The notes below the pieces were generated by a model. It saw nothing but the letters and a program-made list of their open reading frames with translations, was not told the origin of the DNA and ran no database searches. The position numbers were made by a program, and so were the translations under genes. From Verrucomicrobiaceae bacterium (GTDB taxonomy: Bacteria; Verrucomicrobiota; Verrucomicrobiia; Verrucomicrobiales; Verrucomicrobiaceae), in NCBI GenBank assembly GCA_947458455.1, contig CANGYJ010000004.1, positions 310,001-374,000 of the forward strand: a stretch of DNA of 64,000 nt, given 5' to 3'. Of the stretch, positions 44,317 through 52,477 are shown one piece after another; positions within the stretch are counted from its first letter, which is position 1; each line of letters begins with the position of its first letter.

Positions 44317-44343
44317 CAGGGCGTCTCAATGAGAGACGCCCTG
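44317..44343 (-). terminator. Terminator of the ExbB/ExbD operon
   Basis: Perfect 11-bp inverted repeat (44317-44327 and 44333-44343), 5-base loop, followed on the minus strand by TTCTTTTCC. It lies 35 bases after the stop of the last gene. Confidence 0.85.
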
Positions 44344-44377: not shown

Positions 44378-46513
44378 TTACTTGTCGAAGAAGGACTTCT
44401 CTTCGGTATCAGCGACCTTGAGATAGCGGTAATACACTTCGAGCTGGAGGGTGCAGAGGCACTGGCGGTAAATTTCATCGGCGGCATCGCCTGCGGGATA
44501 GTTCGGGCGGCCACGCTTGAAGCTGCCATCAGGCTGCTGGGCGCTGAGGATCTGCGGCAAGAACTGCTGATTGTAGAATTTCCACTCCTCACCGCCGACC
44601 TGGAAGAAGGCTTGGGTGTAGTAGTACCAGCAGTAAAGGTTGCAGTTCTTGTTCCAATCGAGCGGCTCGGCCGCGAGGAACTCGTGCATGAACTTCACGG
44701 CCTTCTTCGTGGCGGCGGATTTGTTCTTGGCCATGGTTTCGAGAGCGAGAATGCCCACGCCGGTGAGCGACCACTGGTTGTAATGCTTGTCGCGATCTGC
44801 CCCGCCGAAGCCACCATCCTTCGTCTGCATGCTTTCCATGTACTCGATCATCTTTTTGATGCAGCTTTCGAGGCCGTCGATCTTCAGTTTGGTGTTTTTG
44901 GCGGCTTTCACGGCCTGGAACTGCCAACCGACGACGGAGAGATCGTTCGCTGCTTTGTTATAGACGATTTCCTTGCCGCCGTAGCCCCAGCCGCCTTTGG
45001 GCGATTGGTTGTCGATGATGACTTTCACGCCCTTCTCGAAGGCTTCACGCATGCCGGGGAGGGATTTGGATCCAAGACGGGCCAACGTGTACATTTCGCC
45101 GAGAGCATAAGTGGCGATGCCGTGCTCGTAAGTGCCTGCGCCGCCCTTTTCACCCATCCAAGTCTCGGAGATGATGCCGTGGGGGTTCTTCTTGCTGAGC
45201 TCGATGAGGTAGGTGATGCCGTTCGTCACGTTCTCGCCGTAGAAGGGAGAATCGGGCGTCTCGCAGCGGCCAAGGAAGCACAGAAGGGCGAGGCCGGTGT
45301 AGGCGGCTTTGTTGGAACGGCCCCAGGAGCCATCGGGATTCTGTTTTCCTTTGAGCCATTCGAGCGAGGCGCTCACCGCCTGCTCGCACTCGGGGCTGCC
45401 GCCGTTTTGACGGAGCTTTTCCAAACGCTCCTGCGTGCTGCAACGGCTGCGCATCGAAGGGGGAAGGCTCACGAAACCATTCGCGCCACCCATGCCGATG
45501 CCTTTGCCAAAGCCGCCACCGGCTCCCGCGCCGCCAAAGCCGCCGCTGCCCATCGAACCACCACCGAGCATGCTGGTGGCATCGGGAATATCGAGGGCAT
45601 CCGGCGGTGCTTCTGGCAGGGAGATGTCCGCGTTCACGCTCGTCGTGACGATCTTCTTCATCGGCGTCGTCTTGCTGATGCTGCTGCGTTTCTTCTGCTG
45701 CACCTTGTGCTGGAGATCCTGACTGGCCGCCGCGCCCTGCTGGGTGCCGCCGCCGGGAAGAAAATCGACCTGCTTCTCCTGCATTTTTTGCGCCACCACG
45801 ATGAGGCCCATGGCGATGAGGATGCCCGCGTGGACAAAGATCGAAAGCGTAAGCGAACCACCGCCGACCTTCTTCCACATCTTCACGAAGGCGTTTTGTG
45901 GCTTCGCAGGCTCGATGTGATGAACGGCTTCGGGATGGAAGACCTCGGTGGGACCAAACTCGCCGTGGTGATGCGCGGCATCATCGGGAATCGCCGTCGC
46001 TGTGGCGACGGCAGAATCGGTGGGAGCCGGCGTCGCAACGACCGGGGCTGCTGGCGTAGGCTGAGCTGGAGCCGCTGGCTTTGGAGCGGCGGGCTTCGGT
46101 GCTGCAGGGGCAGTGGCACCAGGAGCAGGTGGCGGGGCCACCGCCGGCATGGGCATGGTGGGCGGCGGCATCATGCCGGGCATCTGCGGATAGCCGGGTG
46201 GCATCTGAGGGTATCCCTGCGGCATTTGCGGATAGCCGGGTGGCATCTGAGGGTATCCCTGCGGCATTTGCGGATAGCCGGGTGGCATCTGAGGATAACC
46301 CTGCGGCATCTGCGGGTAGCCCTGAGGCATGGGGTAGCCCGGTGGATAACCCATCGTCATCGGGCCGGTCATGTGCGGCGGATAACCGGGAGGCGGCGCG
46401 TATCCTGGCGGCATCTGCGGGTAGCCCTGAGGCATCGGCTGGGTGGCACCGGGATGCGGATAGGGAGCGGCTCCGGGTTGCGCGGGTGGCTGCTGGTTGG
46501 GATCAGGGTTCAT
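44378..46513 (-). CDS. TonB-like membrane anchor with prenyltransferase/squalene-cyclase-type toroid domain
   Basis: 711 aa. Residues 1-210 are Pro/Gly/Tyr-rich, with seven 7-residue repeats of GYPQMPP/Q at about 62-112. Basic KMWKK precedes one membrane helix (about 219-241) containing S224-IFV-H228, the SxxxH motif by which TonB anchors interact with ExbB/ExbD. A Gly-rich linker (about 315-345) follows, then an alpha/alpha toroid (about 360-700) with repeats such as PDGSWGRSNKAAYTGLALL and KDGGFGGADRDKHYNQWSLTG. No DxDD catalytic motif of squalene cyclases was noticed, so it may bind rather than react. Last gene of the operon, 104 bp after exbD2. Confidence 0.85.
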   Translation of the reverse strand: MNPDPNQQPPAQPGAAPYPHPGATQPMPQGYPQMPPGYAPPPGYPPHMTGPMTMGYPPGYPMPQGYPQMPQGYPQMPPGYPQMPQGYPQMPPGYPQMPQGYPQMPPGYPQMPGMMPPPTMPMPAVAPPPAPGATAPAAPKPAAPKPAAPAQPTPAAPVVATPAPTDSAVATATAIPDDAAHHHGEFGPTEVFHPEAVHHIEPAKPQNAFVKMWKKVGGGSLTLSIFVHAGILIAMGLIVVAQKMQEKQVDFLPGGGTQQGAAASQDLQHKVQQKKRSSISKTTPMKKIVTTSVNADISLPEAPPDALDIPDATSMLGGGSMGSGGFGGAGAGGGFGKGIGMGGANGFVSLPPSMRSRCSTQERLEKLRQNGGSPECEQAVSASLEWLKGKQNPDGSWGRSNKAAYTGLALLCFLGRCETPDSPFYGENVTNGITYLIELSKKNPHGIISETWMGEKGGAGTYEHGIATYALGEMYTLARLGSKSLPGMREAFEKGVKVIIDNQSPKGGWGYGGKEIVYNKAANDLSVVGWQFQAVKAAKNTKLKIDGLESCIKKMIEYMESMQTKDGGFGGADRDKHYNQWSLTGVGILALETMAKNKSAATKKAVKFMHEFLAAEPLDWNKNCNLYCWYYYTQAFFQVGGEEWKFYNQQFLPQILSAQQPDGSFKRGRPNYPAGDAADEIYRQCLCTLQLEVYYRYLKVADTEEKSFFDK
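46180..46328. repeat. In-frame 21-bp tandem repeats
   Basis: Seven tandem units of 21 bp, alternating between two versions so that a 42-bp period is seen. They encode GYPQMPP and GYPQMPQ in the N-terminal region of the toroid protein. Adjacent copies are almost identical at DNA level, so copy number may vary between strains. Confidence 0.85.
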
Positions 46514-46617
46514 GACGGATTTCTGATGGAGGGTTCAAGAGTTCAGATTCCATGCTCACGCATGGGCTGGCGGGCATCTTGGGGTGCGATGAGAATTTCC
46601 TGCCCGGAGCAAAAGGA

Positions 46618-47115
46618 TCAGAAGCCGGTATCGCCACCGACGGAGAAGGTCACGTTGGAGACGCGAGCGATGGCGAGGGAGTTCAGCACGTCGATGACAC
46701 GCTCGTACTTGGCCTGCTCCTCGGCTTCGATGGTGACGATGACTTTGGCGCTGCGGTTATCCGCCTCCTGTTTGAGGCGCTTCAGCGTGGCGGTCATGTT
46801 GGGGAGCTTGTCGAGATCGGGAGCCGCAGGCTTGGCGGGGCCGGGATTGTCGAATTCTTCCTCGTTGAGGAGCACGATGCCGGATTCCTCGATTTTGATG
46901 ATGATTTCATCGGGCATTTCCTGCGGGGCATCGGCGCTGGCGGGAGCCACGCCGGGGAGCTGGCTCTTGAGCTCCATCTCCTTTTTCTGGGAGCCGGCCA
47001 TCACCATGAAGAAAAGCATGATGACGAACACGACATCGATCATCGGGGCGATCTGGAAGCCCAGGGCGGTTCCATCATGCTCGATTTCGTTCTTCTTCTT
47101 TCCGTGGGCGGACAT
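46618..47115 (-). CDS. exbD: ExbD/TolR family protein (second)
   Basis: 165 aa. A short cytoplasmic start, then the single membrane helix FQIAPMIDVVFVIMLFFMVM with the proton-relay Asp27, and a periplasmic domain. The periplasmic part is longer than in the neighbour and contains a Pro/Ala-rich stretch. It works with ExbB to use the proton motive force. 12 bp after exbD1, so co-translated. Confidence 0.9.
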   Translation of the reverse strand: MSAHGKKKNEIEHDGTALGFQIAPMIDVVFVIMLFFMVMAGSQKKEMELKSQLPGVAPASADAPQEMPDEIIIKIEESGIVLLNEEEFDNPGPAKPAAPDLDKLPNMTATLKRLKQEADNRSAKVIVTIEAEEQAKYERVIDVLNSLAIARVSNVTFSVGGDTGF

Positions 47116-47127
47116 GGCAGCGGGAGT

Positions 47128-47562
47128 TTACTGGTTAAGGGCGGAGAAGGAGATGTCGTCGATGCCGGACTGGGCGATGACGGCCATGACTTTTTGGACT
47201 TCGACGGCGGGGAGAGCCTTGTCACCGCGGATGATGACGCGGTAGGAAGCGTTTCTGGCCTTCAAATCGGTGAGTAGCTCCACGAGAGCATCCGTTTGCG
47301 GATACTCACGATCTTGGAGCACGAGGGTGGATTGCTGCCGGGTGTTGTTCCAGCGTACGTTAATGATGCCCTCGTTGGCGAGGTTTTTCTCCTTCTTCTT
47401 GGCCGCACCGGCCACGGGAGGAGTGATCTCCTTATCGATCTTCGCCACCTGCGAGGAGGTGATGCTCATGAAGAAGATGAGGAGAACTAGTAGGACGTCG
47501 ATCATCGGAGCGATTTGAAACTCCGGTTCGCCCCCTTCCATATTGCCGCCGCCGCCGCCCAT
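47128..47562 (-). CDS. exbD: ExbD/TolR family protein (first)
   Basis: 144 aa. Membrane helix FQIAPMIDVLLVLLIFFMSI with Asp22 for proton transfer; periplasmic domain from about residue 45 (VIIRGDKALPAVEVQKVMAVIAQSG is typical ExbD). A glycine-rich start (MGGGGGN) is unusual; an internal ATG at codon 8 is an alternative start. Paired with a second ExbD 12 bp downstream, which suggests a heteromeric ExbD in the motor. Confidence 0.9.
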   Translation of the reverse strand: MGGGGGNMEGGEPEFQIAPMIDVLLVLLIFFMSITSSQVAKIDKEITPPVAGAAKKKEKNLANEGIINVRWNNTRQQSTLVLQDREYPQTDALVELLTDLKARNASYRVIIRGDKALPAVEVQKVMAVIAQSGIDDISFSALNQ

Positions 47563-47656
47563 AGTGGTATGAAGTTAAAGGTGAGATGTAAAAAGTGAGA
47601 AGTACTCCCGGGAGGGAGACGCGGGAGTGCCGCGTCTCCTTGGGGTGAGATAGAAA

Positions 47657-48493
47657 TTACGCAGCCACGGCAGCCGGAGCGGCCTCGCCACCCGCGACCC
47701 AGTTTGGCACGGCGGCATAGAATTCTTCTTCGCCGACGTGGGCACCTTTGAGGTGTTCGTAAGGCATCTTGCGGAAGAGAGCCTGCAGGCACTCCTGGAG
47801 GCCGCCCATACCGCCCTGGAGACGGTTACGGAGGAAGTAGAACACAAGGAAGGCAGGCACGGCGATCACGAGACCGGTGGCGGTAGCGACGAGCACCTCA
47901 CCGATGTGGCCGGAGAGGGCACCCACGTCCGAAGCGCCAGATTTACCCAGCTCAGCGAAAGCGCCTTTCATACCAGCCACCGTGCCGATGAGACCGATCA
48001 TCGGGGTACACACACCGATAACGGAGAGGTAGTTGATGCGGGTCTGGATGGAGGCGTTCACCTTGTTGATTTCGGCAAACATGGCGGTTTCCACGGCTTC
48101 TTCGCCGTCACCCGCGAAGCTGAGGCAGACGCGGCTCACATCGCAGAAGGAGGAATTGTTGTTCTTCGCAAACTGGTAAGCACCGACGTAATCACCGCTG
48201 CGGAAGAGGTCTTGCATTTGAGCCACATGGGCTGGAGGAGCGAGCTTCTTCACGCCGGTGCGGCCCCAAGTATCGACCGTGAGCCAGACCATGGCGACGG
48301 AGCAGATAAGGAGGGGATACATCACCCAACCGCCCTGGATAAAGAGCGTGATAAGGGAATCACCCTGCGGATGAGCATGGGCATCAGCGGCGGCAGCGGC
48401 TTCCTGAGCGGAAGCGAAGCCAGTGAGAACACCCAGCGCCAATACGAGCAACGGAGCGGCAGGGACGAGACGGGAACGGAGGAGGCGTGTCAT
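47657..48493 (-). CDS. exbB: ExbB/TolQ/MotA family proton channel protein
   Basis: 278 aa. The N-terminal hydrophobic segment looks like a signal peptide (ends FASAQ); a His/Ala-rich stretch follows. Three membrane helices then fit ExbB: GGWVMYPLLICSVAMVWL, TPMIGLIGTVAGM, and VATATGLVIAVPAFLVFYFL. It forms the pentameric channel around ExbD. The gene is preceded 54 bp upstream by a TPR protein and followed 94 bp downstream by exbD1. Confidence 0.93.
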   Translation of the reverse strand: MTRLLRSRLVPAAPLLVLALGVLTGFASAQEAAAAADAHAHPQGDSLITLFIQGGWVMYPLLICSVAMVWLTVDTWGRTGVKKLAPPAHVAQMQDLFRSGDYVGAYQFAKNNNSSFCDVSRVCLSFAGDGEEAVETAMFAEINKVNASIQTRINYLSVIGVCTPMIGLIGTVAGMKGAFAELGKSGASDVGALSGHIGEVLVATATGLVIAVPAFLVFYFLRNRLQGGMGGLQECLQALFRKMPYEHLKGAHVGEEEFYAAVPNWVAGGEAAPAAVAA

Positions 48494-48547
48494 GTTTGAG
48501 TAACGAGGTGGAGGGTTATGATGGGGGGGGTGTGAGAAAATGTGGAG

Positions 48548-49513
48548 TTATTTTTTTGGCTCTACGGCAGTTTTTGCAGGCTCGGCGGCTTCTTTGGGCT
48601 TCTCAGCGCCTGCGGTGGACTTTTCATCCTTCTTGCCGTCCTTGCTTTCATCCTTCGTCTGCTTCGAGGGATCTTCGTTCTTCATGCCAGCGATGGAGGC
48701 TTTTTCCTTCGTGGCACGCTCGGCGATGAGAGAGCCGGGATAGGAGGCGATGAGACGGGTGAAAAAGGAGCCTGCGTCCTCAAAACGGCCCATCTTCACG
48801 AGCATGAGGGCAGCCTGTAGCTCGGCCTCTGGCACACGCTGCATCTGCGTGCCGTAGAAAACGGGGATGCGCAGGTAGGCGAGCAGGGCCTTTTCCCATT
48901 CCTTCTTCTTCACATGCACATCAGCGATGATGTTCCAGAGGGCGGCACCGACGGCGGAATCATCCGTCTCCTTCAAAATGCTCTCCGCCTCGGCCACGAT
49001 GGTCAGATAATCGGAGGAGGTCTGACGGTCGATATCGAGCTGGATGATGCGCAGGCGCATCTTTTGAGCATCCGTGAGCTTCAAATTACGAGCGGAGGGC
49101 ATAAGCTTGATGACATCATCAAATTTTCCGCCGGCGTTCAGCGCTTCGATGTAGGCGAAGTAGATATCGACATACCAGTTCCCTTCGACGTCCTTGAAGT
49201 TCTCGAAGAAGTCCTTCCCTTTTTTCAGCACGTTGATGGCGTCTTCGGTTTTGCCTTTGGCGAGAAGGTCCTGCGAGTCCGTGAGCTCGGCGGGGTAGGG
49301 CCATTCGAGGGAGTCGATGTTCTGCCGCATGATTTCACTCTTGGCGGTGGCCTCGCCGATCTTGATGGTGCGGATGATTTTCTCTCCTTCGAGGGAGAAT
49401 TCGTTCGAGAAGACCTTGCTGCCGTCTTTCAAGACGATGGCCTGGGCACGGGCGAAACCGGCGGAGGCGAGTAGAAGGCCGCAAACAGCGAAAAACAGGG
49501 AAACGGAGCGCAT
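48548..49513 (-). CDS. Exported TPR-like protein of the ExbB/ExbD operon
   Basis: 321 aa from the ATG at 49513, with signal peptide 1-23 (ends FARAQ). After a beta-rich start (AIVLKDGSKVFSNEF), helical repeats resembling TPRs follow from about residue 70 (AINVLKKGKDFFENF, KEWEKALLAYLRIPVFY). The last 45 residues are Lys/Glu/Asp-rich and disordered. It probably acts as a periplasmic scaffold, comparable in position to CpoB in the Tol system. 30 bp after the large TPR gene. Confidence 0.75.
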   Translation of the reverse strand: MRSVSLFFAVCGLLLASAGFARAQAIVLKDGSKVFSNEFSLEGEKIIRTIKIGEATAKSEIMRQNIDSLEWPYPAELTDSQDLLAKGKTEDAINVLKKGKDFFENFKDVEGNWYVDIYFAYIEALNAGGKFDDVIKLMPSARNLKLTDAQKMRLRIIQLDIDRQTSSDYLTIVAEAESILKETDDSAVGAALWNIIADVHVKKKEWEKALLAYLRIPVFYGTQMQRVPEAELQAALMLVKMGRFEDAGSFFTRLIASYPGSLIAERATKEKASIAGMKNEDPSKQTKDESKDGKKDEKSTAGAEKPKEAAEPAKTAVEPKK

Positions 49514-49543
49514 GACGGTCAAAAGTGAGGCTTCAGTGGCGGT

Positions 49544-52477
49544 TTAGAGCGTGGCGATGAGGCGTTGGGCTTCCTTGGTCTCCGGCTTTTCTTTGAGATC
49601 GGCCCGGTTGATCATCTCTTGGAGCGTATTGCGAGCCTCCTCTTTCTTGCCGAGGGCGATAAAGGACTTGGCAGAGCCGAGGTAGGCCTTGGCCATCTCG
49701 TCCTTCCAGCGCTGGTGGGCGATGAAGACACGCTGGTAGTAGGCGATGGCGGCTTCGTGCTTGTTTTGAGCGGCCTCAATGTCGCCGAGCATGCGCAGGG
49801 CGTTCGCCGTGGGTTCGCCGCGCCATTCTTTGGTCTGGGCGATCTGTTCGTAGAGCTTTTTGGCGTCGTCGTATTTCTTCAGCTTCGCGGAGGCCTTGGC
49901 GACACCTTGGGAGGACTGGAGGATATAGGCGCTGCCTTGGTATTCGCTGGCAGCTTTGAAGAGTTCCAGCGCTTTGTCGTAGTTGTTCTTTTCGAACTCG
50001 ATCTCGGCGAGGCCCACGGGAGCGCCATCCGAGTATTCGGTGTTCTTGAACACATCACGGAGGCGGACGTAGCAGGCGGTCGCCTTGTCGAGATCGCCCT
50101 TGGTACGGGCATTGTCACCCACGATGGCGAGGAGCATCGGGCTGAGGTCTTCGGCCTTGGCCACCTCGACGAGGATGTTGAAGAACTTGCTCGTCTTGTC
50201 TGGCAGCTTCATCGCCTTTGCCAGCCAGGTCTTGGCAAACAGGATGCGCATGGCGGCGGTGCCGTTGTTGAGTTCTTTCGGAGGCGTGAGCAACTCTTCG
50301 AGCTTCTTTTCCACCTCTTCAAAGGTCTGCTCATACTCCGGCACCTTCGGTGTGGCAGGGGCGGGGGCGGCTTCAGCTGGTTTTACATTCGGATCAGGCG
50401 CGGGTGCGGGGGCGGCACGACGGCGTTTCGGCGTCACCACGTTCACGAGCTGCTGAATCAGGCCTTCGACCTGCTGGTTGGCGGCGTTGGAGATGCGCTG
50501 CTTGATGTGCTCAGAGAGGAGCTTTTGGGCTTCCTCAGGCTTCTGATCCTTGATGTGGGAGCGGCTGATCCAAAGGATGGCTTTGAGGGAGAGTTCCTCG
50601 TTGTCCTTTTTCGTGTTGTAGTAACGCTGCCACATGCCGGCGAGCTTCTTCCACTCGTTCTGGCCCACATAGAGGTCCGTGAGCTGATCCATGACGTAGT
50701 TTTGCACGTCGTCGGTCTTTGCTTTGTCCACGGCGGCCTCGAACTGCTTCGTGGCGTTCTCGTAATCGGCCTTCTGGTTGTAAATATCGCCAAGGAGGGC
50801 ATGTACCTGGCCCACGTTTTGATCGTTCGGATGCTCCTCGGTGATCTTGGTGAGCATTTCCTGCGCCTTGTCCTTCTTACCTTCCTGGAAGGTGATGAAA
50901 GCGAGGCGGTATTTGGCATCGCAGAGGTAGTTTCCTTTGGGATTCTCCTTGATGTAGGTCTCCAGAGCTTTGACCACGTTCTTGTAATCGTTCTGGTAGA
51001 AGTAACTCAGGGCGATGCGGTAGAGGCACTCGTCCTTGTAAACGCTGTCCTTGTTCGCTGCCATGAGGGCATCGAAGGCGGCGCGGCCCTGCTCAAAGCG
51101 CTGCAATTCAAACAGCACGATGCCGCTGAGGTAACGGAGACGCTCTTGGTCCGCCTTGGGGAAGCCGGAGGCCTTGTTGAAGGCGCGTTCGGCTTCTTCG
51201 AGCTGGCCGTTTTGATAGGCGAGCATGCCGTACATCTCGGAAATCTGGCCCAGCTCGCTGCTGTCCGGGAAGTTCTCGATGAATTTCTCGCAAAGCGCCC
51301 GCGCCTCTGGAATGCGCTTCAGGGCGGCATTCACCATGATGAGGCCGTACATGCAGCGATCACGCTGGGGGAAGTCTTTGAACTCATCGACGATGGTGGT
51401 GAAGGCTAGGATGGACTGCCACATGCGACTGGCGTCTCCGGCGGCACCTTCCGCAGGCGGCTGACCCATCTCAAAATAGCAGCGGCCGAGGCGGTAGTAG
51501 AGCGAGGCATCGTAATCCGTGCGCTTTTCGATCTCCGCCAGGATTTCCTGCCCAGCCTTAAGCTTCGCTTCGAGTTCAGCTTTTTGATCGCCTTTGGACA
51601 CTTTGAGCTTCGCTTCGATCTTCGCGATCTGCTCCCTCTGGATGCGGGAGATCTCGCTCTTGCGGCGGACGAGCTGGTAGGCGTTCAGGGCATCCTGGAA
51701 GGCCTTTTTCTCCATCATCTGGTCGCCCAGTTGGAGGTAGATGTTGTTCATCTGGGCGATGTTGTCGCCGCCGGAGGCAAAGTTCCGCACCTTGTCCATG
51801 AGGGCACTGGCTTCGTCGAGCTTGCCACCGGCCACATAGAGCTGGGAGGCCATCATGGCCGCCTGGATGGATTCCGGGCTGCGTACGCCATCGGCGAGCA
51901 CGGCGGAGAGGATTTGGAGGGCGTCCTCCGTCTTGTTTTCCGCCTTGTAATGATCCGCGATGATCAGGCCAGCCTCGGCTTTCTTCTCGGGAGACTTGCC
52001 CACGACTTCTTTGAGCACGGCCACCCCTTTTTCTCCCTCTTTGGACTTCAAATAGGCACGGCCCAAGGCCATGCGCACATCCGTGATGCTGCCACCTTCG
52101 GGGAACTCCTTCACATAGAGTTCGAGGGACTCGATGGCCTTCGCGAAGTCCTCCAGGTTGAAGAAGCAGGCACCCTTGGCGTAGAGGATGCCTTCGAAAG
52201 GCTTGTTGTTCAGGTTCTTCTCCGCCTGAGCGATCTTGGAGAGAGCTTCCTGATACTTGGCCTCGGTGAAGAGCTTCACCGCCTCATTCATGAGTGCTTC
52301 CGTTTCCTGAGCGATGTTCAGAGCACCGCCAGCAGCAGGAGCACCAGGGGCTGCCGGAGGGGCTCCAGGAGCAGCGGGTGGCTGACCAGGAGCGGCTGGC
52401 GGGGTCGTGGGTGCCTGTCCCATGACAGAGACACAGGCGGCGAGGGAGGCGAGCGTGACGCGAAGGGGAAGCTTCAT
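49544..52477 (-). CDS. Large exported TPR-repeat protein
   Basis: 977 aa. Signal peptide 1-20 (ends VMGQA), then a Pro/Ala/Gly linker and many TPR units from about residue 50 to 960, e.g. FAKAIESLELYVKEFPEG, YENATKQFEAAVDKAK and YDKALELFKAASEYQGS. A Pro/Ala-rich interruption occurs around residue 680-710. No enzyme motif. First gene of the operon; its length and solenoid suggest a periplasmic assembly platform. No lipobox is seen. Confidence 0.85.
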   Translation of the reverse strand: MKLPLRVTLASLAACVSVMGQAPTTPPAAPGQPPAAPGAPPAAPGAPAAGGALNIAQETEALMNEAVKLFTEAKYQEALSKIAQAEKNLNNKPFEGILYAKGACFFNLEDFAKAIESLELYVKEFPEGGSITDVRMALGRAYLKSKEGEKGVAVLKEVVGKSPEKKAEAGLIIADHYKAENKTEDALQILSAVLADGVRSPESIQAAMMASQLYVAGGKLDEASALMDKVRNFASGGDNIAQMNNIYLQLGDQMMEKKAFQDALNAYQLVRRKSEISRIQREQIAKIEAKLKVSKGDQKAELEAKLKAGQEILAEIEKRTDYDASLYYRLGRCYFEMGQPPAEGAAGDASRMWQSILAFTTIVDEFKDFPQRDRCMYGLIMVNAALKRIPEARALCEKFIENFPDSSELGQISEMYGMLAYQNGQLEEAERAFNKASGFPKADQERLRYLSGIVLFELQRFEQGRAAFDALMAANKDSVYKDECLYRIALSYFYQNDYKNVVKALETYIKENPKGNYLCDAKYRLAFITFQEGKKDKAQEMLTKITEEHPNDQNVGQVHALLGDIYNQKADYENATKQFEAAVDKAKTDDVQNYVMDQLTDLYVGQNEWKKLAGMWQRYYNTKKDNEELSLKAILWISRSHIKDQKPEEAQKLLSEHIKQRISNAANQQVEGLIQQLVNVVTPKRRRAAPAPAPDPNVKPAEAAPAPATPKVPEYEQTFEEVEKKLEELLTPPKELNNGTAAMRILFAKTWLAKAMKLPDKTSKFFNILVEVAKAEDLSPMLLAIVGDNARTKGDLDKATACYVRLRDVFKNTEYSDGAPVGLAEIEFEKNNYDKALELFKAASEYQGSAYILQSSQGVAKASAKLKKYDDAKKLYEQIAQTKEWRGEPTANALRMLGDIEAAQNKHEAAIAYYQRVFIAHQRWKDEMAKAYLGSAKSFIALGKKEEARNTLQEMINRADLKEKPETKEAQRLIATL

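Follow-up and report, generated by a model that had tools for sequence, protein, structure and literature searches.

The operon at positions 44378-52477 of the window, the 64,000-nucleotide stretch of DNA analysed here, is real and conserved, and most likely encodes a force transducer of the Ton/Tol type whose tip is an (alpha/alpha)6 toroid. It is a variant, with another tip, of the vWA transducer operon of the PVC group, which was described as a force transducer in 2025 (Williams-Jones et al., PMC12204202). We consider it likely that the six genes encode a proton-driven envelope machine in which the toroid-tipped transducer is docked by its helix and grips a periplasmic or outer-membrane partner. 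ExbB and two ExbD proteins would form the inner-membrane motor, and the sixth protein would dock on this motor by a single helix through H228, aided by S224. A flexible Gly-rich linker would span the periplasm to the toroid, and turns of the motor would pull on or reshape the partner that the toroid holds. The two TPR proteins would assist in the periplasm, much as CpoB does in Tol-Pal, and the toroid would be one of several exchangeable tips on the motor lineage.

The six open reading frames all lie on the minus strand, in the order TPR-L, TPR-S, ExbB, ExbD, ExbD and toroid protein, and are separated by gaps of 21, 54, 94, 12 and 104 bases. The earlier note had described six co-directional genes closed by a terminator, and the open reading frames, the Pfam matches and the hairpin confirm this. 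The intrinsic-terminator-like hairpin at the operon end (44317..44343, minus strand) was found by a terminator-site scan and consists of 11 pairs, 8 of them G-C, followed by a T tract; of 20 terminator-like sites in all it is the strongest, where shuffled sequence averages 11.5 sites. The sole promoter-like site detected is on the strand opposite to the operon, and an Rfam search across the window gave no match.

TPR-L, the 977-aa first TPR protein (49544..52477), matches many Pfam TPR models and carries CpoB/YbgF-like repeats, with 102.1 bits against the NCBIfam model tol_pal_ybgF (cut-off 90.1). TPR-S, the second TPR protein (324 aa, 48548..49522), has weak Pfam TPR matches, one of four above cut-off; both proteins have starts that, judged by eye, resemble signal peptides. 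The ExbB/TolQ-type motor subunit (278 aa, 47657..48493; Pfam MotA_ExbB, 80.6 bits) can be aligned over residues 132-225 to solved TolQ chains and over residues 145-229 to solved ExbB. The two ExbD/TolR-type proteins, ExbD1 (144 aa, 47128..47562) and ExbD2 (165 aa, 46618..47115), score 63.3 and 63.2 bits against Pfam ExbD; ExbD1 also matches TolR chains, and for ExbD2 no solved PDB relative was found at E 0.001. An ExbB-ExbD motor is recognized by the ExbB core region and by the aspartate of the ExbD helix, and both are present here, the aspartate as D22 in ExbD1 and D27 in ExbD2. In NCBIfam, the top-scoring models for ExbB and for the two ExbD proteins are those of TolQ and TolR, yet the scores lie far under the cut-offs of those models.

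The sixth protein (711 aa, 44378..46513), by Pfam and AlphaFold a TonB-like transducer with a toroid tip, begins with a Pro/Tyr-rich extension (residues 1-205, 45899..46513) whose composition and charge predict a cytoplasmic location. Within its coding sequence lies a tandem repeat (46179..46330) of 3.4 copies of a 42-base unit, or alternatively of a 21-base unit, which encodes a PQGYPQMPPGYPQM-type repeat. The extension is followed by the one predicted membrane helix (residues 222-243, 45785..45850; helix prediction and AlphaFold), by a Gly-rich linker (residues 246-355, 45449..45778), predicted to be periplasmic and largely of low pLDDT, and by the toroid (residues 356-711, 44378..45448), which AlphaFold, Foldseek and VIA assign to a squalene-cyclase-like fold. 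The helix of the window protein starts near residue 222, compared with a median of 67 in 127 toroid proteins. In 123 of these 127 proteins a charge comparison places the positive flank before the helix, and therefore the topology should be N-in, C-out and the Pro-rich start should be cytoplasmic. The Pro-rich start described in the earlier note is present (32% Pro), but on the predicted cytoplasmic side, so that it would not correspond to the spacer of TonB; the periplasmic spacer would rather be the Gly-rich linker. The proposal that the toroid stands at the position of the TonB C-terminal domain is supported; no TonB_C or TolA C-terminal domain was found, Pfam giving toroid models only. SQHop_cyclase_C reaches 34.4 bits (cut-off 26.1) and Prenyltrans stays under its cut-off. 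The C-terminal matches are of the squalene-cyclase and prenyltransferase-toroid types, and NCBIfam adds a weak hit from a family of membrane proteins. Homology of the tip to TonB_C was rejected on the same Pfam result.

A match to the family profile was found in 143 of 288 genomes sampled from the phylum, some of them matching the toroid part only. From the match list 40 loci were picked by hand, about one per family, though some families recur, f1 six times, before linkage was inspected. In 23 of these 40 loci, and in 17 of 27 families of Verrucomicrobiota, an ExbB gene stands on the same strand no more than 6 kb upstream of the toroid gene, and such loci usually have a pair of ExbD genes and TPR genes as well, in unchanged order. 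By simple arithmetic (8 ExbB per 5.35 Mb), the chance of meeting ExbB within 6 kb upstream is about 0.5%. At the remaining 17 loci no ExbB was detected within this distance, a count that includes both toroid copies of G282, a genome of the window's own family, and that has to be read with two properties of the sample: 6 of the 40 stretches have less than 7 kb upstream of a toroid, and the motor-gene profiles were built from related operons and may miss very distant motor genes. The median gap between exbD and the tip gene is 71 bases (47 distinct cases, vWA-like included). Within the genus, 30 other genomes had an ExbB match and a stretch was taken from 21 of them. The toroid gene directly follows exbD2 in 15 of the 21 stretches (5 partial on the contig), and the contig ends before the tip position in four, so that 15 of 17 informative loci have the toroid; in the other two (L087, L093) no toroid follows exbD2. 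At one locus (L088) only the Pro-rich start of the toroid gene is on the contig. The arrangement is old and has been retained far beyond the genus. The two conditions that the earlier note named as refuting its idea, a toroid gene not kept with exbB and exbD and SxxxH residues not conserved, were both checked, and neither check refutes the idea outright. A search of plasmids for relatives from outside the phylum yielded one toroid-only match, with 25% identity, in Planctomyces sp.

Several irregular loci were seen along the way. The contigs of five genomes (G002, G007, G010, G027, G029) begin or break inside the toroid gene, probably due to the near-identical helix and linker of two copies, and such breaks can hide linkage in draft assemblies. 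A second, distant ExbB-ExbD set immediately follows the toroid operon at L178:11598-12862 and L274:10476-14155, and the operon at L264:4648-11341 has three exbD-like and two tandem toroid genes.

S224 and H228 are located as had been claimed, and form the single SxxxH of the whole protein, within its membrane helix. Among 140 distinct transducer proteins (141 with one record that appears twice, as L079 and L164, and was removed), drawn mostly from Verrucomicrobiaceae, 121 have H at the site of H228; at the site of S224, 116 have S and 21 have A. In 127 distinct helix segments, of the same predominant origin, His is kept at 85%, Ser at 81% and the third-best position at 54%; His is thus the best-conserved position of the helix and Ser the looser of the pair. 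All 13 distinct vWA-like relatives have the helix H, as do 38 of 43 operon-linked toroid proteins and 70 of 84 unlinked ones, contig ends being counted among the latter. The conservation of SxxxH anticipated in the earlier note therefore holds for the His, but Ser is often Ala and His is lost in 5 of the 43 linked proteins. In these five, motor genes are adjacent despite the lost His, with P in f37, f60 and f62, G in f47 and N in f51, one protein in each family; the operons concerned (L256, L259, L286, L289, L291) are otherwise intact. Either coupling has changed in these five operons or another residue took over. In the Akkermansia-like family f2, seven unlinked toroid proteins have V, A or I at the position and four operon-linked ones have H. 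Two small genomes of this family (L047, L057) carry tandem runs of toroid transducers with the helix motif SFLGV or SVLGA, with no ExbB adjoining in the stretch.

The 2025 paper presents an AF3 model that docks the transducer helix on the motor via the His (PMC12204202), and H228 may serve in the same way here. According to a review passage, TonB H20 probably has a structural role and not that of accepting a proton, and a paper cited in that review states in its title that Asn fully substitutes for TonB His20. By analogy, N at the His position may be tolerated, because that title reports full replacement; P and G are unexplained. The spacing of the SHLS motif was taken from TolA (S18, H22, L29, S33), and the other half of this motif, Leu at H+7 and Ser at H+11, is absent from the window protein, which has M235 and V239 there.

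The same motor genes are found with more than one kind of tip. In f4, a sister family, two of four genomes (L079 and L081, from G050 and G044) keep the helix and linker but end in a MIDAS-like domain with DTSGSM; these tips give weak vWA matches, and L166 is alike. After the motor genes of the other two f4 genomes (L080, L082) neither a toroid nor a vWA tip was found. In f3, five genomes have an operon of TPR, ExbB, two ExbD and a vWA-like protein; their vWA label is weak by Pfam, but in a small test the tips match those of f4. Pfam vWA is above cut-off in L192 only (33.8 bits) and below threshold in L079, L081, L166, L207, L206, L210, L213, L217, L044 and L052; L040 and L220 have no Pfam vWA match. 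In a small all-against-all test, the vWA-like C-terminal parts match each other with the exception of L040, for which none of the other ten gave a match. The motif DxSxS is present in all 13 distinct vWA-like proteins, and the vWA label given to several of them is a weak one.

In a quick tree of ExbB, the vWA-linked motors of f4 and the toroid-linked motors of the window's group form one fully supported clade, and a separate clade, also fully supported, holds 17 motors that are linked to toroids elsewhere in the phylum. The three tip labels need 12 changes on this tree, against a mean of 32.6 after shuffling; the label 'none' includes contig ends, so that the nine changes of the toroid label are an overcount. 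Since the vWA-linked motors of f4 share a clade with the window's toroid-linked motors, the tree indicates that the motor lineage predates its present tip in at least one of these families. At two loci of f3 (L044:6955-10775, L052:7706-12031) a toroid transducer adjoins a vWA-like transducer, both with AxxxH helices; the toroid proteins there have Pfam TPR above cut-off before the helix, the vWA-like partners have it weakly, and no motor gene was found in either stretch.

The genome of the window itself, a 5.35 Mb assembly whose named relatives belong to Verrucomicrobiaceae and include Prosthecobacter, has four proteins with a related helix and linker. Besides the operon protein, these are a second toroid protein (C5:362591), 86% identical across helix, linker and toroid and with no motor genes within 19 kb, a vWA protein that passes the Pfam cut-off (C9:59949), and a protein (C9:264056, L040) that has the DxSxS motif without a Pfam match or a match to the other vWA tips, and whose putative vWA nature is read from that motif. 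The genome encodes eight ExbB-type proteins, among which the one of the operon alone matches the window's ExbB at 1e-20; there is one motor of this type for the four tips. We compared the paralogues in the 10 genomes from which both toroid copies were taken. Between the copies of one genome, in all ten, the helix is 97.6-100%, the linker 96-100% and the toroid 75-87% identical, while between genomes the averages are 61%, 79% and 81-83% respectively. Identity at four-fold sites is 0.83 (helix), 0.86 (linker) and 0.62 (toroid) within genomes, against 0.37-0.39, 0.52 and 0.47-0.52 between them, so that a slight homogenisation is seen in the toroid as well. Between copies, the N-terminal extensions agree to 78-98%. 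The copies pair by genome in nine of ten cases in a tree of helix and linker and in none of ten in a tree of the toroid.

This pattern is most simply explained if gene conversion acts on the half that faces the motor and spares the tips. The near-identical halves fit two tips matched to one motor, and neutral conversion would look similar. A broader idea, plausible if a little short of probable, is that the unit TPR-TPR-ExbB-ExbD-ExbD would act as a socket driving tips of unrelated fold, namely two toroids, one vWA protein and one protein with a vWA-type motif, each with a related motor-facing half. Tips would have been swapped over evolution; conversion or selection would maintain the fit between the motor and these halves in the toroid copies, and the tips would become specialised for different envelope targets.

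AlphaFold, run on 34 sequences, predicts a confident 12-helix (alpha/alpha)6 barrel behind a disordered linker (mean pLDDT 72.8, pTM 0.67), with pLDDT mostly above 80 across the toroid. The top Foldseek match is squalene-hopene cyclase (E 5.8e-6, TM 0.39 by query length), and VIA likewise gives squalene-hopene cyclase (2sqc; Z 25.6, 286 residues, 3.0 A), with equal or nearly equal scores for other terpene cyclases and, about 2-3 Z units below, barrels of sugar-active proteins. Type II terpene cyclases have DxDD as their catalytic motif. This motif is absent from the window toroid, and its letters occur anywhere in only 4 of 161 toroids; cyclase chemistry of the DxDD kind is unlikely on this count, and type II terpene cyclase activity was rejected as the likely function. 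Over 47 toroids below 60% identity, a set of polar and aromatic residues is conserved (E418, T419, S422, Y462, E473, Y511, D524, S526, W530, Q533, Y627, Y630, Y631, Q634 and R696), as are structural Gly and Leu. By sequence and helix order, several of these residues stand where alternate helices begin, and may hence lie on one rim of the barrel. Because the conserved residues are polar and aromatic, we would guess that the toroid binds a glycan or a peptide and not a greasy substrate of the cyclase kind.

This fold leads to the alternative that survives best, although we consider it unlikely. The toroid would be a membrane-anchored periplasmic enzyme or binding protein for a glycan or an isoprenoid that shares its expression with the motor without being moved by it, and the His would be a relic or serve helix packing. 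The structural neighbours of the toroid are indeed nearly all enzymes (cyclases, epimerases, mannanases), polar and aromatic residues are conserved in it, and P or G stands in place of H in some operons. The own genome also has free toroid relatives without the helix and with signal-peptide-like starts (L193:7212-8318, L194:6906-7979, and L202:6605-7762, the last a weak match). Against this alternative, S and H stand out over all other helix positions, toroid proteins have the helix and linker in common with vWA-like ones and differ from them in the tip, the motor-facing halves of the paralogues are near-identical, and DxDD is missing.

A second alternative, which we regard as improbable, is a variant Tol system that would stabilise the outer membrane in division, with TPR-L in the role of CpoB and the toroid binding a Pal-like or TolB-like partner. 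The score of TPR-L above the tol_pal_ybgF cut-off and the preference of ExbB and ExbD for TolQ/TolR models, far under cut-off as it is, would agree with this, and the Ton role may already be taken in this genome, where the one TonB_C gene (C8:110332) adjoins another ExbB (C8:109738). On the other hand, the tol_pal_ybgF model is itself a TPR model and TPR-L is rich in TPR matches, and among the neighbours of 36 loci no recurrent TolB or Pal was found. In these 36 loci only one group, MutL-like, recurs in more than three families, and two more groups occur in three families each. The MutL-like gene, named by eye, lies within 150 bases after the toroid in six families (L280, L283, L285, L286, L290, L291). 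Conserved neighbours were judged uninformative as a clue to the target. The last alternative, in which a common ExbBD operon and a toroid gene unrelated to it are neighbours by chance, could appeal to the unlinked second copy of the genome and to the two genus loci without a toroid, but it is refuted by the synteny, with ExbB shortly before the toroid gene in 17 of 27 families and tip genes so close behind exbD, and was rejected as next to impossible.

The Ton and Tol systems are the textbook cases of energy transfer from the inner to the outer membrane. If the force-transducer reading is true, a phylum-wide sister system with an unrelated tip fold, together with tip exchange, would mark the motor as a socket of general use. 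The system also offers a test of the coupling parts (helix, linker) against the task part (tip) of TonB-like proteins. It further suggests where to look for the function of many toroid proteins whose annotation is likely to read prenyltransferase or squalene oxidase repeat protein, since the one record outside the phylum, the Planctomyces sp. match, carries such a name. The earlier note considered the role undescribed, and this stands in part: our literature search, made among open-licence PMC papers, found no paper on a toroid tip, and the words squalene and toroid are absent from the main text of PMC12204202, but that paper had already reported, in 2025, this operon with a vWA domain as its tip.

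Compared with known systems, the operon resembles Tol-Pal in that TPR proteins like CpoB/YbgF are encoded with the motor, but TPR-L is far longer (977 aa) and first in the operon, while CpoB is the last gene of the tol-pal operon. With TonB-ExbB-ExbD and TolA-TolQ-TolR it shares the motor and a transducer with one N-in helix in which S and H are four residues apart. Unlike TonB and TolA, the window system lacks a TonB_C or TolA C-terminal domain and has two ExbD genes; the L and the second S of SHLS are absent, and the Pro-rich part precedes the helix. The tip has the fold of squalene-hopene cyclase and type II terpene cyclases, with Z 25.6 to 2sqc and SQHop_cyclase_C over its cut-off, but it differs from these enzymes in having one barrel, no DxDD, a polar and aromatic conserved set, and a tether behind a helix and linker. 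Closest are the vWA transducers of the PVC group, whose operons, as PMC12204202 describes them, likewise have TPR, tolQ-like and two tolR-like genes and then a one-helix transducer with a conserved helix His and a disordered linker. The window system departs from them in its tip, which by Pfam and AlphaFold is an (alpha/alpha)6 toroid with no vWA domain.
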